Positions 11,031-34,000 of a DNA stretch of 64,000 nt are shown in pieces. Positions within the stretch are counted from its first letter, which is position 1. Each line of letters opens with the position of its first letter. The notes beneath the pieces are model-generated. The model did no database searches and was not told the origin of the DNA. It saw only the letters and a program-made list of their open reading frames with translations. Source of the DNA: Tubulanus polymorphus (taxonomy: Eukaryota > Nemertea > Palaeonemertea > Tubulaniformes > Tubulanidae); the NCBI RefSeq assembly GCF_964204645.1, contig NC_134027.1:26586485-26650484 (forward strand), given 5' to 3'. The translations under genes were made by a program, and so were the position numbers.

Positions 11031-11460
11031 CTGAACTTAAGGTAAACAATATTGACAGTTCTTCGAAGTTCGATCGTTTTTTGCTAAAAAAGTGGCTCAT
11101 GTGTTGTTATGAAGTAGCCTGTCGCCTGCTGGTAATCCATTACTTGTATTCATTTCCAAACTGCATTTATTTCTGTGACTCTGCTGAGGGAGCTTATTGC
11201 TGACTGAAAATTATAGGCCAAAATTATATTATGACTTGTCTTAGCAGGCCTGAATTCAGTTGATTGTTTTGACTTGATTCAGCAGATTGAGATTGAGATT
11301 GATCTTATTCAAAGTTTTGATATTGCACCTAACTGTTATGAATTCATTTGATAAATTCTTAATTTCAGTAGGCCTACCGGAACAAGAGCATTGTTACAGT
11401 GTAAATTCCAGCTTAACGTTTTATGTATAGGCCCATTTCTTCTTTTAGTGTTCAACGAAG

Positions 11461-13822
11461 CGGTTCCTGAACTTCGCTGAAAAAGCTGAATCACTGAAAC
11501 GCTGAAACGCTGAAATAAAAACGCTGAAATTTCAGGGAATTTCCGAAAAACGCCGAAATTTCAGGGAATTCCCGAAAAACGCTGAAATCGTGCTAGGTAC
11601 CAACAATACACGTTTTGAAATATTTTCCGGGCCGGTGTCCGCTGCCGAGTCCTGAACCGTGTTTTAGTCTCTACCTTCGGTTACAGAGACATGCATGGAC
11701 AGTATGTGTGGAGTATATTTCTAGAGGGCCACTTGTTGGACAAATTAATTCGCTTGAAATCCGGATTTTTAATGCATACAGGCAGCATAATTAGGAAAAC
11801 CCATTCACAAACCGTGCAAGCCAACTTAAACACTATGCTCAATATTCCCTGCAAGACGCAAAATATCTTATTTGAACGTTCTTGTATAAAACATGCAGCA
11901 ACTTTTCTTTTGTCAACACGTTGATGGGCGACGGACTATGTCACTATGGTATTCTCTGAAGGAGGTAAATTAAATTTGACAGCTAGTTATATAAATGATG
12001 CAGCTTTTGGACAAAAGGGATCTAACTAAATTTCTTTTTAATTCACTGTGGAATGGAATGGAATGGATTGACGCCAATGGCATGCAGTAGGCCCCTACGT
12101 ATGGGTCATACTGATTAGCGTCAACCAATTAATCTAAATCGGGCTAACCATTCAACAACTGTGAATAATTTATTTGCTGTGGCATGATAATAATTAGTTT
12201 TTTTGAAGAAATGACATACCAACTGTTAGAAAAATGTACCGATTCTTAATTTTAGACTACTACTGAATCTATAAAAGGAGGAGTCATAGACAGAGTTGAT
12301 TTGCTTAGCTGGTGACACTTCTTGTCAAGTACATCATCTCAAGTACTGGGTGTTTTGTAAGTTTAATTTCAGTATTTATTTACTAAGTGCTGTTCTCTCG
12401 GACCTCAGTGCTTTCAAACTAGGCCCACCCCATAGGCTATATAGTCCAGGGTGCATTAGCCACTATTCTTTTATATCCGACTAAAATGCACCTTTTTCTA
12501 TTTTTAGATTCAGGCTTAGAATGTGCAAATTTTTTGAGATACTGAGAAATCAGATGGCACCAGTAAACTTCAACTGCGAAATTTGCAGCAGGATAGCTGA
12601 ACGACACAATTTTTAAAAATAAAATGGCTATTCGAATGCTATTTCAATAATAACTTGATTCAACCTGAGAGAAATAAGTCAATTGCGGATGTACAGTACA
12701 CCCACTTTTCTTCCCTGTTTCCTGGTACCAAATTTTTAGTCTTAAGCTAAGCGATATTCTAAGGTATACTAGTGGATTTCATTAGAATATGAAGCAATGG
12801 AACCAGAATTCTAGCCAGAGTTAAGCGAACTATTGATTCTGATATAATGTAAGAACTGATTTCCTTTGTATACTCTTGCAGAATGTGTTATGTTTTATTT
12901 CAAGCTGTTAAATAATATAGTTAGACAAATGTCCAATTATTGGATCTTTCTTGTTGACTCGTTTAATTTTGTGAGTTAAGAGTTCCAGTCAATCCACAAT
13001 GTGCAGTGCCTAGCCTTCATCTACACTAAAGCCAAGCCTGTGTATGGGAAAAAAATATCGTTCGACTCCTATAGGCCAGACACATCAAAGCATGCAATAC
13101 ATTGCAGATAGTAGTCTCCGGCTAGTCGAAAGAGAAAGTGAACCACCTACCCGGGAACAGAGACACTTAAAGATTCCTTCCTCCTTGTAGAAATTGTAGA
13201 AATATGGCACCCAATTGTAGCAATGCTAAGTACAGTATACTATGACGGTTGAACCTTTCTTAACGAATTTCAATGACACCGAAAATAGAATCAAAATAAT
13301 CATTAGTTCCATGCTAGCACTTAATTTGGGTTATCAGGTTCAGCCTAACTGTACTTTCATTCAGCTACTACTTGTATGAGACTTGGCAATGATAAGTTGC
13401 AAGAAATCACCAAACATAAGAAAAAATATTGTGAATTAATATTACTGTGATTAAGAATTTATTCAAATGAAGTGATAACTTCATTGTTAGATCGTACCGG
13501 TATATGCACATAAAACTATGGCAAAAAACACATCTAACAATCCACGCAATCCGCAATCGATCAAGTCAATCATGACGACGACCTTAAGGCATGTCTCTGT
13601 AACCGAAGGTAGAGCATAAAACACGGTTCAGGACTCGTCAGCGGACACCGGCCCGGAAAAAATTTCAAAACGTGTATTGTCGGTACCTAGCACGATTTCA
13701 GCGTTTTTCGGGAATTCCCTGAAATTTCGGCGTTTTTCGGAAATTCCCTGAAATTTCAGCGTTTTTATTTCAGCGTTTCAGCTTTTCAGTGTTTCAGCTT
13801 TTTCAGCGAAGTTCAGGAACCG
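11461..13822. mobile_element. Complete 2.36 kb Mutator-like transposon, apparently non-autonomous
   Basis: Terminal inverted repeats of 234 bp (11,461-11,694 and 13,589-13,822) begin CGGTTCCTGAACTTC. They contain two imperfect tandem copies of a 29-30 bp unit around ACGCYGAAATTTCAGGGAAT. The element is flanked by an exact 9 bp direct repeat TCAACGAAG (11,452-11,460 and 13,823-13,831), i.e. a target-site duplication. Long TIRs with a 9 bp duplication are the signature of Mutator-like elements; assignment beyond that is inference. The 1.9 kb interior has only ORFs under 80 codons and no transposase I recognise. The right end is 26 bp before the ATG of the tandem-C2 gene. Confidence 0.9.
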
Positions 13823-13847
13823 TCAACGAAGTCATTGATAGAATAAG

Positions 13848-16800
13848 ATGGGAAGCAATCAGAGTCAAAGCACGATTCAACATCAAGAACAAGAAAATGC
13901 AGATGACATCGAGCGAGGAATTACTGCAATGAAACATCCGCAACACGAGAAACTACAGAAACACGATGAATTACAACGTTTAGCTCACATTTATACAACA
14001 AGAAACTATCTACATAAACATAGAAACAATGTGTTAGACTATGACAGAATTGAATGCACCAAAGTAAGTCAAGTTGTTTCAGTGAGTTTCAGGGGAATCC
14101 AGTCCGGTATTCAGACTGCACTGTCTCACACAATCATTTATAACACCTAGGCCTACTGGTAACGGGAACTTCTTCAATCTAACAACTTAAGACCAGTTTG
14201 AGCTCATTTTAGTTCTATAGGTAATTGTCAAATGATCATAGGGACTTCAGTGACCACTGTGACCATCAACCATGGTATTCATTGGACCCATATACTATCA
14301 GTTGTGACAAGTCCCTGCAACCCCTCAGCCTGGACACTTTGTTTTAAGGAGTGAATTAGTCAATTAAAGTGTACCAGGGCTACAGATTGATATCTGTATT
14401 GTGGAGAGCTGTAGAAACTCATTTAATGTCAGTTTCTGGGGAACATCATAATCTGCACTTTATCCTCTTTAGTATCTGATCCTATTTGTCCACTTTAGTC
14501 TTGCTGTAAGTCCTCTCTAGTATCTGATATTTTTCTCCAGTATCTGCTGTTTGTCCCTTTAGTACATCTAATCCTATTTGTCCTGATCTTCACGAACGTA
14601 AATGTTTCATTTCAACAGGAGAACATGATTTTGGTGAAGCAGATTTTTAAACAGTTGGATCCGACGGTGATGAAATGTACGAATATCGAAGGTGATTTAC
14701 TGCTTAGTATGAAATACGACACGAGTCGTGAAACATTGATGATTAAAGTCATCAGAGCTCGTGATTTAACTCCGAGACAAATCAGAGGAGCCACTGCTGA
14801 TCCTTATGTTAAGGTATTTCAGATCACAATCCACTTGATTCAGTTGCAAGGCTTAAATTGAAGCCCAGGGGTCAGTTGCACAGTCGTGACTTAAGTGCAA
14901 AAGTTAAATCTAAGACTGGTCTTGAGTTATTAGATTGGCTATAGAACTAAGTCGGTCTTACACTGGTCTTAAGTTGTTAGATTGGCTATAGAACTAAGTC
15001 GGTCTTACACTGGTCTTAAGTTGTTAGATTGGCTATAGAACTAAGTCGGTCTTAAGTCTAAGCCCTGACTATGGAACCGGCTCCTGTTCTGTAGCCAATC
15101 AAACAACTTATAAGCTCATTTTGGTTCTATAGCCAATCTAATTACTTAAGACCAGTCTAAGCTCATTTTGATTCTATAACCAATCTAACAAATTAGCCTA
15201 AGACCAGTGTGAAAATTTAAGACCGTTTTTGTATCTGATTTGTTACTGCGAATGAATTTCATTTAAGAAACTGAAAGATTTTAATTATTGACTAATAATT
15301 TGTTTTTTAGTTGAAGCTGTTTCCCGACCATCATAGCCAGGGAATCAAAGAGACACGCGTAACTAAGAGAACTTTAAACCCGGTCTACCACGAGATATTC
15401 AGCTTCGATCTCCCGAAAGACGTCGTCTCAACTACAAAGCTCGCCGTTCAAATTTGGGATCACGATATTTTGAGTAACGACGATTTCATCGGCGAAAGTT
15501 TGATCGAATTGAAGAATTATGATTTCCAGTTGCAGCCGATCACAACAGCGTGGTTTCCTTTACAGAATGAGGTAGGCTTAATCGACGAACCTAGCTGTCT
15601 GTCTCTATTGTCCTCTCTTCGATGGGGTCCCAGGCATTCCATCCTCTGGATGCTGGGTCTGGATGCAACCACATTTCTATGGAGTGAAACTTGTTGCAAT
15701 TTGAACATCTATCATATTTATGTCTTATTACACTAAAAACATTGAATTGAAAATAAAAATTTGGAATCAAAAATAGTTAAAACGGTAATTTCAAAAATTG
15801 TATCATGTATAGACATAGTTGTATAGTGCAGTTGTTATCTTTAGAACTGCGTTATAACATAAAATGAATTATGATTTTATATGATGATTCGATGTGTGTC
15901 TATTTCAGACTGATTTATCTATAACTGGGACGTTGAATATTGCTTTAGGATATCGTTTCCCTCAGACTCTGCTCGTTACGGTAATCAGCGGCCATCAACT
16001 AGCGCCGCGAGATATAAATAATTCAGCCGATCCGTTCGTAAAAATCATGATTCCCGGTATTTCAACTATACATCAAACACAGGTATAGAATTAGAAATAG
16101 AATACCATGTTTTGATCGGATCACACTGGACTGTTGTTAAATAATCTTTATATTCTTCAGGTGAAAAAGAACACTTTAAATCCAGTTTGGAATGAGACAT
16201 TTGAATTTACAGTTCCATTTGAGGAATTCCCATACAGGTTTGTATGCACCAGTACTGTAGATTATCATTTTTTTAATTCCATGACCCAATTCATCGGTTG
16301 TGAATTCAATTTGTTTCTTATACATAGATATAATCCTACAACATTATCTGAACTCATAGTTGTGGAGCCATAATTCTTCCATTGAGCTTTATCAGTTTAT
16401 TTTGATAGATACATTGTTTTCATTGATAGATACATTGTTTTCAACACCGTTGATCATGATACCATTGGTGACAACGACAGTATGGGACAAATTATAATCG
16501 ACCTCGGCAACCTTGACCCTGATATTGGTTACTATGGAGACTTTGAATTAGCCGATTTGGTTCGTATTTTTCCTTGTATTTCATGAGTTTGATATTTCAC
16601 CTTTTGGACGTTGGTCTTCAATAAATTACAGAAAAACTACGAACTTTTCGTTTCAGAAAAATACGGACAGATTAAGATCGAAATGGTCACAAAAAGCTAT
16701 TGCTCAGGAGTTCAAGGAGGCATTGGTCGCGCATTCACAATTTACTATGCCTGATCTACTGTTTAAACGACATACAGGAAATAAAGTAAGTTTTGAAAAG

Positions 16801-28049: not shown

Positions 28050-31000
28050 TCATTCGTCCTGTTCAATTATTACCGTTGACGCTGGTTCATCTATTTCATC
28101 CAAACTGAAAGCTGGATTGTCCGAATAAGACGTTATAACCGCACGCCGATTCACAACCGGGGAATAATCGTCCTCGAGCGATTGAGTATTATCGATATCT
28201 ACAATCCTTTCATCGTCCTCCGCTAGAATACAAACGGAATTCGAACTATCGCTAGGTTTAATCAACGCTTCGTCCTCCTTGTCGTCGTCCTCGTCGTCGT
28301 CGGGTAGCGGTATTAAACTTATAGCACCATGATTTAAATTATCCTGAGTTGTCGATGAATCGTTATCGATAATTAAACACGACGACGACGCCGTACTCTG
28401 ACCGCTCGTATTACGAGATCGGTAACTATCGGATAAAATACATTCAGAATCGGAACTATCTCCGCTCAAACTACGACTGGCTCGATTAGTCTCTCCTGCT
28501 CCGTCTGCTCCGTGCTGCTGTCGATCGTCGCCGGTTTCTTCTTGTTGCGTGTGAATTATAACGTAATTATCGGGTAGTTCTTCCATCTGAGCAGCAGCAG
28601 ACGTGTCACCGGATTCCTCGTTATCGCAGTGAACTCGTTCATACAACGGATTCACACCTCCGGCTGCGGCTCCTCCGGATCCTCCTCGCTGGAGTCGCGC
28701 AGCGCGAATTTGAGCCATCACTTCTTCGAACGGTCGCGACGATCTCATCGCTTCGTGATACGGCGGCGGCGCCGGTATACGCATGAATTCGGCTTGTAAT
28801 CGAGACATCGGCGTATCGAATCCGCTACCGTTTTCGTGCAGACGTAACGCGAATAGTTTAATGGTACAACCGAGCGCGATAACGAGAACGAGGCCGCAGA
28901 TTAATGAACCGACTACAGCTGCTAGTATCACACGCACTGACGGCACAGCTTTATAAAATAATAAAACAATAACCCGTTATTCAATGTTGAATTCGTGATT
29001 CTAAAAAGAGGACTCTACGTTTGGGGCAAGCGTGGATCAAGCAGGTGTCGCTAGTGTGCATTAGGACACCGACTACTGCGGAGAGGATTCAAAGATTTTC
29101 AAATTCTTTGGACCTTGCTATATCTCAATCCTAAATATCAATCTGAGACCCTAAATATCAATCTTAGTTGATCAAGAAACATTATTTGTCTAATTTCTGA
29201 TTTTTAACTTGGTTGATACGCAGTACAACATCTAGCAGAATAGATGGCGCAGCATGCCATCTTGGGGGGTAACTGGTGCACGCAGAGCCCTCATTCTAGA
29301 CAAATCATCAATACCTGTACAATTGTGTTCATCACTTCCATCATCGCAGTCATTCGTACCGTCGCACAACCAAGATTCAAATATACATTTCTTGTTCGAG
29401 CATAGATAAGTACCATTATGAGGACCGCATATATCAGCACCTGAGAAGAGCAAGTTACAAGTTATCAGTTTCGTATGAAATGCATTAAAATCCAATAGTG
29501 AATACATGAAACCTTGCTTAGTACATAATTCCTACCATCAAAACCAAGAGTTGGAAAATGAGAAGGGAAATCAGAAAATGATTTCATTAGAATTATTCCA
29601 AAGTCTGAGTCAGGCGAGGTGTACTGCAGACAATCTTGGTGACAGGCTGCAAGACTGTTGAATAGTATCATTGTCTCTGCACAAAGCACGCTTATAATTT
29701 CATTACCTCAATTCCAAGACAAAACTGTTCAATGCATATTAATATTAAGACATGACGCATTACCCCGGAAGAGAGTGCGTTTTAAGTTTGCGACCTGAAT
29801 GGAATTACTTTGCTAAATAAATCATATAATTCTAAGACTTACTGCAATTGATTTCGTCTTTATTATCGAGACAGTATCCGAGACCATTACAACGTTCAGA
29901 CAGAGCGTAACAACGATTACTATCTGTGCTACACGGGAACGAGTCCGGAGTACCTTTACATCGAGCTTAAAATATACATCACATTATATAACATTAACCA
30001 TTATGTTTTCAATATTGTATTTACAGTTAGTGACCTAATCATTAGTCGTAAGCTTTACTTTACTTTACTACCAAATCAGTAAACAGGGTCCCTACAAATC
30101 GGTCATTCCTGGATATAAGGAGTTTTCAAGGAGTTTTAATGACAGAAATTTCAGAATTTCGAAGAAGCATCATTTTCATATCCCAATTACTCTAGACTTC
30201 TCGTGAAGGGGTACTGTTTATCTCGGTAAACCATTACCAGGTAATTAAACAGTTTTATAAACAAATTTTTATCCTTTACACTACCTAAACTCGACTTTTA
30301 ATTCAGCAACCTTCCGACTTAGGGAAGTTCATGTAAGATTTTAAATCGATGACAAATTTTCTACTTACGACAGTTTTTCTCATCCGATCCGTAACTCTTA
30401 CAATTCCAAACACCGTCGCATTTCTCGTAACTATCGTAACAGTTTATCTCTCCGTGACATCGCGTCTGATCAGGGAAACATATACCTGAATGATAAAACA
30501 CATAGTTATCAATTAATTATCAGTTAAGAAGGAATAACAGCATCATAATAAGCAGATCCAGTCTTAGGAATAACGGTTCCAGATTACAGTTTTAAAGGAG
30601 AAAATTTCAAATTTCGAGGAAGCGTCTGCATCATTTCATGTCCCAATTACAGTAGACTCTCCCATAAATTGGCACTGTCTTTATTTTTATCCTTAACACT
30701 ACCTTAACTCGGTACTAATTCAGTAACCGCCTCTTTGAGTAAAGAATCCTACTCCAAGCTGTACTGACTTAGGCATAGTTTGAAAATTGTACAAGATACC
30801 GAGGTATAAATGAGTTTTGGGAATTTTGCTCAAATTAAAAACATATTCCTGTTTAGGAGTTTTTAAGGATTTAGTAGTAGGGACCCTGACATACGAGTAC
30901 TCCAGAATGGATAGACCCAATCGAAATGTGCCTAGAAATGAACTACCATACCGCATCAAAACATCAATGGATGACACAAACCTTTTCGTTGATAAGTGAG

Positions 31001-34000
31001 GTTGAATCCGTGACCGATGATGCTTCCGAATGGTTGCGGATTATCGCTGTAGAATCTCAACACGAATTCACTGGACGTCGATTCTAGGAATCGCGGTGGA
31101 TGATTATTCATGTTGTATTTACCGACTCTTTTAGAGTATATCGGTCCGTCGTAGATCGTCAGATAGTCCGTCTCGACTCCGAAATCAAACGTTTTAAATC
31201 GCAGTTGAATCCTTACACCAGGTGGCGCATGTATCGACCATACGCAGTTCATATTAGCCGGGTAATACCCCTGAACGAAATGAGGCGTCTGGATAATTCC
31301 TAGCAATCCTTCGACGTGTCCTCCACATGAGCGTCGTTCTAGAAATTAGAATTCGAATAAATGTGTAGAACAATGTATGATAAACAGGGATGGATCTAGA
31401 AGGCCGAAAGAAAAGGAAGGCCTGATGCGAGGTTCCCCCTCTTTTGAATCTTTGAGGAATAAATTGAAGAACATGCACTTTCCAAGGCGATGAATATCAA
31501 AGTTGCATGTTTTAACAATTTCTATCTTGGGTCCAGACTCCCTAAAATCCACCATGAATTGATTCAAAACTTACGACAACCGATTTCATCGACTCTAGAC
31601 ACACAATCGTTGACTCCATCACATTTCTTCACGTTGTAAAAACATGTACTTCGTCCAGTTTTGACTGATATACAACTGAACTGTTCGATGTGACAGTATT
31701 CAGTTATCGGTGTCGGTCGGTGAATACCTGTCATATCAAATAAACATTCTTACAATACATTAAATGAATCGGGATATTTGAAATTTGCAACGTGTCACAA
31801 GAGGCAAAGGAAAAGTAGAGCACCAAATCAGAAAAGTTTGAACAATTCCGAATATTCGATTTTCCAATAAAAACTATTATGAAGGAATGATGATTCCTTG
31901 ATAATAGTTCTTAGTTGAAAACCAAAAATTCAGAGTTTATGGTTCGAAAAAAAAATTTCAGTTTTTTCATTAGGGTTAAACACCCAAGTCTGGGTGAATT
32001 CATTTAACATGAAGGGAAACTAAGATACAGTCACATACAATAGACTCTTGTCTCAGACTTCCAATTCCCTGTGGCCAGTTGCGCAGTCTTTGTTTAGATT
32101 TGAGACAAGTTTAGGATCAGTTTTATGACTCAGACAGCTTTTAGAGTTCTTCGACAGCTGCCTTGATTCTTTTCGTACAGAATAAGGTGAACAATACTTG
32201 AACTAACATTGTACGGGAGATTTGTTACTGACCTGCAGAACAACGATGTTCATCACTTCCATCAGAACATTCTCTCATTCCGTTACAACGCCATTTATCA
32301 TAGATACATTTACCGCTTAAACATTTAAATTCATCACTACGACAAGTATTATTGAAACGAACCGGACCTAAAAAAATTCAGATAGAAAAATTGAGAAAAT
32401 GAGATACAATGCCTGTAGTCCGTGTCGCGCCTAAAACTTCTTCCAAAGTGCCCTTTTCTCTAGGATTCTCTTCGGAAAGCAGGGGTGGATCTAGGGAAAA
32501 TTAGAAGTCATTTCTCAGATAGAGCAGCAAAGTTAAAGGCTTCTATTCGGGTTCCTCCCTCAGTTTAAGATATATCTTTAGATATTACAAGGTCGAAAGT
32601 TCCGAGAGGATGAATGCTTTTAACAGGTTTTAACGATCGCTTTCCCAAAAGAAAAGGCTGTCACTGGAAAGGAGCTAACTTAAGAAAAAATATGCAAATT
32701 CAACATTCATAGGTTCAGAGTTTGAAGTTCTTAGTTTCTATACATACCAGAAATATAATTCAAATTGAATCCTCTTCCTGTACCCTGACCTCCTGTTTGA
32801 TATGTCACTATCACCGATGAGTTACTCATAAATACAGGCGGCAAAATTTTCATTATATCTTTACAATATCGCCACTGGTTTTTATTCCCATCGGCTAATT
32901 CAACATAGCTATCACCACACATCCGACTCTTGCCCATCGGAAAGTCGAGATCATTGAAACTATAATAGCAAAAAACAGCAAATCATGAAAACATTCTTAA
33001 CGAGATACTTAACGAGAGAAATCCCACAATAACGAAGCCAAGATTGAAAAATCCAAAATCGGAATGATTATATTTGAGGAGGCGACGTTTCGGCTAACAA
33101 CTGTTAGCCATCATCAGGCGTACTAATGTAGATACTTATAACACCTATCTATATAACATAAAATCCCACACATGAGCTCGCATTATTCAAATTTTCAAAG
33201 ATATCCCAATAGACATTTTCAGGAATAATGATGTGTGTGACATAATTCTCAACAAAGAGAGTAAAGACAAGTCAGAATATAACATACGAATAAAGGGGTT
33301 AGAACCCTTAGCACCTTCTATCTCGAATGTAGGTTGGTTTATAGCTCCAGATGCTGGATGGATTAATTACCTGATAGTTAAAGTAGAACCAGCGGGTACA
33401 TTAATGCGCCATCGTTTACACGAGTTAGTCCGATAGTCCGGACTTCTGATTTCTCCGCGTATATCGTGTAATTTTACTGTCGGATATTTTAAACACGCTG
33501 AAAAATATATTAACGCAATAATTAAAACAGTGGAAACAGATTCTTACAGATCAGAGAATCTAGAATTCCGTGATTTTCCATGAACGTTGACCAAAATCCC
33601 CCGCAATAAATCATAAAATATCTTCAATGGGGGCGGTTTCTAATCAAGAGGTTCCTTGTGCCACTCATATCAGCAACAAAAAACACGAGACATCGTAAAT
33701 TAAACTTCCCCAACTTTTCAAGAAAGGGGTCAGAATTTCATAATTTTTCCTGCAGGAAAAAATAAATCCAGAATTCCCATATCTGTATTAACCTTGAATA
33801 CTTTAATTGTATAGGCCTATATATGGGTGAATCAATGAAAAAAAACAGACAACTACATACAACGCAGCGCATTATTACTGGATTCCACTGGAGCAATAGT
33901 ATCTGAAATTAATAAAACATCAGGTAAGAATCAATTCAACGAAGAAGGACAAAAAAACTCAATCAATAATCTCGATAAAAGACAGTAGCCTAGTGTGTGC

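Follow-up and report, generated by a model that had tools for sequence, protein, structure and literature searches.

A probable Mutator-type non-autonomous DNA transposon directly upstream of a C2-domain gene in Tubulanus polymorphus

The element and the gene beside it

The window is a stretch of 64,000 nucleotides of Tubulanus polymorphus, and positions given without a contig are positions in it. Inverted-repeat comparison and direct reading of the sequence place a putative Mutator-type non-autonomous DNA transposon of 2362 bp on the plus strand at 11461-13822. Its terminal inverted repeats (TIRs), the left one at 11461-11694 on the plus strand and the right one at 13589-13822 on the minus strand, are 234 nt each, 97% complementary and separated by 1894 nt. 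An exact 9-bp target site duplication (TSD), TCAACGAAG, was read directly at both ends, at 11452-11460 and 13823-13831, without strand assignment. The preliminary description had reported inverted termini of 234 bp and an exact 9-bp duplication on both sides, and both were confirmed; its claim that these are the certain boundaries of an intact DNA transposon is supported by the TIR pair together with the TSD, and the unit itself was also recovered in 29 other copies. The outermost bases of the terminus are CGGTT, and bases 3-12 form the imperfect palindrome GTTC-CT-GAAC. Both TIRs contain tandem repeats with units of about 8 and 29 bp, represented in the left TIR by a tandem CGCTGAAA-type repeat and a subterminal 29-bp repeat.

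The interior was said to contain no recognisable transposase, and this proved correct, with the longest frames reaching only about 100 amino acids and none passing the Pfam cut-off. A captured host gene, as in a Pack-MULE, was likewise not indicated by any Pfam match in the interior. Searches against Rfam and for tRNAs gave no match, and the right TIR, taken as a single DNA strand, folded no better than shuffled sequences.

Downstream of the element, an ATG at 13848 is preceded by an in-frame TAG (13839-13841) and has A at -3 and G at +4, which makes it a plausible start codon. It follows the last base of the element by 25 nt and the second TSD copy by 16 nt; the distance of 26 bp given earlier is right as a coordinate difference. 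The first coding exon (MGSNQSQS...IECTK, 72 codons) extends on the plus strand from 13848 to 14063, its border being placed by the donor motif GTAAGT at which it ends. The exons that follow encode C2 domains (Pfam, 5.2e-20 and 2.3e-6), in agreement with the earlier naming of the gene.

On the other side of the element, a splice-acceptor-like sequence on the plus strand at 11430-11448, with 11 pyrimidines in 12 positions and its AG at 11447-11448, is a candidate acceptor of a 5' intron or outron of the C2 gene. The insertion point is located 12 nt downstream of this AG. When the flanks are joined without the element, they read TTTCTTCTTTTAG, TGTTCAACGAAGTCATTGATAGAATAAG and the ATG in succession, and only 28 nt then separate the strong acceptor-like site from the ATG; the element interrupts the short leader between the two. 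By the same reading, an empty allele should have the sequence TTTTAGTGTTCAACGAAGTCATTGATAG; neither an empty-site paralogue nor an empty allele of the locus was found in the assembly. Further along the window, at 28053-31345 on the minus strand, frames were identified by eye which resemble a gene for a membrane protein with CUB and LDL-receptor class A domains.

A young family of copies

The genome searched was the window's own assembly, consisting of 267.8 Mb in 77 contigs. The left end used as a query gave 443 candidates and the interior 278, with 40 scored places each and an identity of 96-100% in both cases. The 26-base terminus has 411 matches in the genome with at most three mismatches, versus 0 for the reversed control, and the family is therefore estimated at about 200 copies. 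For the TSDs, 30 full-length copies were cut with their flanks, the window copy included; 24 have an exact 9-bp TSD, two an exact 10-bp TSD, one a 9-bp TSD with a single mismatch and three none, and the sequences vary from site to site with no clear consensus. The 29 other near-full-length copies are 98.4-99.7% identical to the window copy, gaps not counted, and identity between the copies and the consensus is 98.9-99.75%; the window copy carries six private changes relative to the family. The family has been amplified recently, in a burst of a non-autonomous DNA transposon to about 200 copies.

Exact 21-base termini were sorted by the preceding base (343 counted, 336 listed), and the listed ones form 126 facing pairs, the lengths of which peak at 2.34-2.40 kb and at 2.65-2.67 kb. 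The 2.66-kb form (L066) is longer by a segment of about 340 bp, and the parts that align differ by about 6%. Among the longer pairs, those opened or probed mostly proved to be this element interrupted by foreign DNA; for single-end copies and the majority of long pairs, the assessment relied on coordinates or short probes only. On most chromosomes (contigs C1-C12), the copies are concentrated centrally. The window copy is located near a chromosome end (C3, 26.60 of 27.81 Mb), unlike all but a few copies.

An autonomous partner was searched for with three transposase models. The MULE transposase model PF10551 gave 56 genome matches, the ZSWIM-type RNase H model PF21056 gave 19 and the Merlin-type model PF12762 gave 43, and none of the 56, 19 or 43 matches lies inside a pair of listed termini, a count which elements with changed termini, or matches outside the listings, could escape. 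The genome search with the TIR for a copy carrying a MULE transposase, proposed in the preliminary description, was thus run and found none among the terminus pairs. The two closest MULE-type matches lie just outside a copy and resemble a separate element; the MULE beside a copy in L065 and C28 was rejected as the partner, being a separate neighbouring element. Near copies at two loci (L065:3760-4623 and L070), a MULE-type gene was seen whose domains are ALS2CR8- and ZSWIM-like, possibly by chance or through a common insertion preference.

Several long pairs were also considered as autonomous copies and rejected. The 4.4-kb pair (L061) belongs to a duplicated region together with a copy on contig C2 (C2:14676276-14680687); both copies are 4412 bp long and share identical flanks and the TSD GTTAGGCGA, from which it follows that a region of contigs C4 and C2 is duplicated. 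The 6.3-kb pair (L062) consists of two or more copies and Gypsy-like pieces, and the pairs of 3.4, 3.9 and 5.1 kb (L067-L069) contain insertions into the same element. One copy (L068:772-1809) is interrupted by a Penelope-like frame of 346 amino acids with reverse transcriptase and GIY-YIG domains, recognised by eye. By probes, the 4.8- and 4.0-kb pairs were identified as the element with inserts, and the 8.5-kb pair on contig C5 was rejected with BEL/Pao-like frames seen by eye. The 11.5-kb pair on contig C3 consists of a piece of the element and a DDE_Tnp_4 sequence. The mobiliser may have been lost, may be absent from the assembly or may reside on an element with changed termini.

Superfamily assignment

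MULEs are characterised by TSDs of 8-11 bp and long TIRs (PMC6446971). The present family has TSDs in this range, mostly of 9 bp (24/30, with 2/30 of 10 bp), and TIRs of 234 bp at 97%, long TIRs being usual but not universal in the superfamily. The terminal imperfect palindrome and the subterminal tandem repeats are found in Phantom/Muta elements as well, a likeness of form which does not imply homology. Mutator is the best reading and probably the correct one, judged from architecture, while membership stays short of proof. Of the original assignment, the part resting on TSD, TIRs and terminal motif stands, and none of the listed terminus pairs was found to enclose the MULE transposase that had been expected. 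Two outcomes had been named as speaking against it. A general lack of the 9-bp duplications in other copies did not occur (24 of the 30 have them exactly), and for an autonomous copy of another superfamily the only apparent case was a P transposase in an 8.8-kb copy, which proved to be nested.

Merlin elements, which produce duplications of 8-9 bp, were considered as a second source of such a non-autonomous transposon. The genome contains the 43 PF12762 matches, the TSD lengths overlap, and Merlin elements can also produce 9-bp duplications. However, an IS1595-type transposase within the same TIRs was not identified, the nearest Merlin match being 7 kb away from any listed terminus, and the long TIRs with subterminal tandem repeats and the occasional 10-bp TSDs suit MULEs better. 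A Merlin origin is thus very unlikely.

That the element is a Galileo-like foldback of the P superfamily can practically be dismissed, since the P-type transposase exons enclosed by the same TIRs in one 8777-bp copy (C6:11704481-11713257, 10-bp TSD GTGGCCTAGC; RNase H match 2.9e-9 after joining exons by hand) lie in a 6.4-kb insert with inverted ends and an 8-bp TSD of its own. In the alignment of this copy, element bases 1-651 are followed by the insert and then by element bases 644-2362, so that the 8-bp duplication corresponds to element bases 644-651. The inverted ends of the insert are perfect over 34 bp, and on either side of it the copy is an ordinary element with 96-98% identity. The P transposase was therefore rejected as the element's own. 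By coordinate comparison, most other close P copies are located away from these TIRs. The inserted P element of about 6.4 kb (within C6:11704460-11713280; L084, L087, L088) has several other transposase copies in the genome, with protein identities of 95-98%.

Possible effects on the gene and comparison to known elements

The explanation likely to hold as a whole is that of a recent Mutator-type insertion, mobilised by a MULE and handled mostly as an intron in the transcript. The element would be a non-autonomous cut-and-paste transposon whose architecture is Phantom/Foldback-like and whose movement depends on a transposase acting in trans. This enzyme would recognise the TIRs and make a staggered cut of 9 bp, occasionally 10 bp; a MULE transposase is the presumed mobiliser, and MULE genes do occur in the genome. 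The ancestral acceptor at 11448 would now be located upstream of the element. Read towards the gene, the right TIR is a run of TTTCAG repeats mimicking 3' splice sites, so that an upstream donor or a spliced leader could be joined within 13759-13806; the 5' UTR remaining ahead of the ATG would then be only about 40-90 nt long. In this interval, six YAGs on the plus strand resemble 3' splice sites, with AG ends at 13759, 13773, 13781, 13789, 13797 and 13806. Within these 48 bp, the six sites compare to a shuffle mean of 1.79, and one of 500 shuffles had as many; under a stricter pyrimidine rule, three sites are left in the right TIR, which is marginal (29/500 shuffles), and none in the left TIR. 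The array is a by-product of the tandem repeat composition of the TIR.

The sequence is compatible both with splicing-out and with the use of an internal TATA box plus donor. From these motifs, removal of the element within a 5' intron or outron is tentatively favoured over expression loss or a new promoter, with a chance somewhat below even.

It is doubtful, again on motifs, that the insertion silences the C2 gene or greatly reduces its expression. The 2.4-kb element does lie between the ATG and both promoter and acceptor, and if it stayed in the message, the region from 12300 to 13847 would place 27 ATGs ahead of the start codon; however, the C2 exons appear open, and the acceptor-like sites at the exit of the element would provide a bypass.

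A new promoter supplied by the element is less probable still. Here, transcription might start from the TATA-box-like TATAAAAGG at 12270-12278 and a short non-coding exon might be spliced from the GTAAGT at 12357-12362, 87 bp 3' of the TATA-like motif, to the same acceptors in the right TIR or to the gene. Both motifs are on the plus strand, in the sense of the C2 gene, have the spacing of a genuine first exon and are present in 29/31 and 31/31 aligned copies, respectively. However, the copies are too young for this conservation to mean much, a GTAAGT should, by a rough estimate, turn up about once in 2.4 kb by chance, and the motifs were picked post hoc.

To return to splicing-out, TTTCAG repeats in both TIRs might act as 3' acceptors independent of orientation, so that copies which landed in exons would be spliced out at the exit end. 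We regard this generalisation as improbable; if true, it would describe an animal Mutator-type element which softens its own insertions. MULEs are little described in animals, and the family is an example from an animal genome of a non-autonomous element of this type which recently multiplied to high copy number, with one gene-proximal copy as a direct test case for splicing or promoter effects.

The element is otherwise ordinary for its kind. It resembles introners with TIRs, in which the end of a DNA transposon can bring a 3' splice site and act as an intron (PMC9860276), and differs from them in that splice-like motifs alone are known here. With Rehavkus, it shares a 9-bp TSD and TIRs in the range of 26-400 bp (PMC6446971); Rehavkus is distinguished by a PHD-finger transposase, and the likeness concerns TSD and TIRs. 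The Tm1 Mutator/Foldback family of Meloidogyne has composite TIRs with tandem repeats, TSDs of 9 bp (8-10 bp) and one terminus beginning with CGGTT, given as CGGTTAA (PMC3169594), but, unlike the present element, it has asymmetric outer motifs, variable TIR lengths and a known MULE transposase. The architecture described above is also seen in Phantom/Muta1 of Aedes aegypti and its derivatives, which have long TIRs, subterminal tandem repeats and hundreds of non-autonomous copies, the Aedes MULEs showing TSDs of 8-9 bp and subterminal tandem repeats within long TIRs (PMC5225508). In contrast to Muta1, the palindrome here starts at base 3, the TSD is 9-10 bp instead of 8-9 bp, the repeat units measure about 8 and 29 bp, and an autonomous partner was not found. 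Muta1 also ends in a 10-bp palindrome whose positions 5-6 do not pair (PMC5225508), and the same form, an imperfect terminal palindrome of 10 bp with its two central bases unpaired, is present here.
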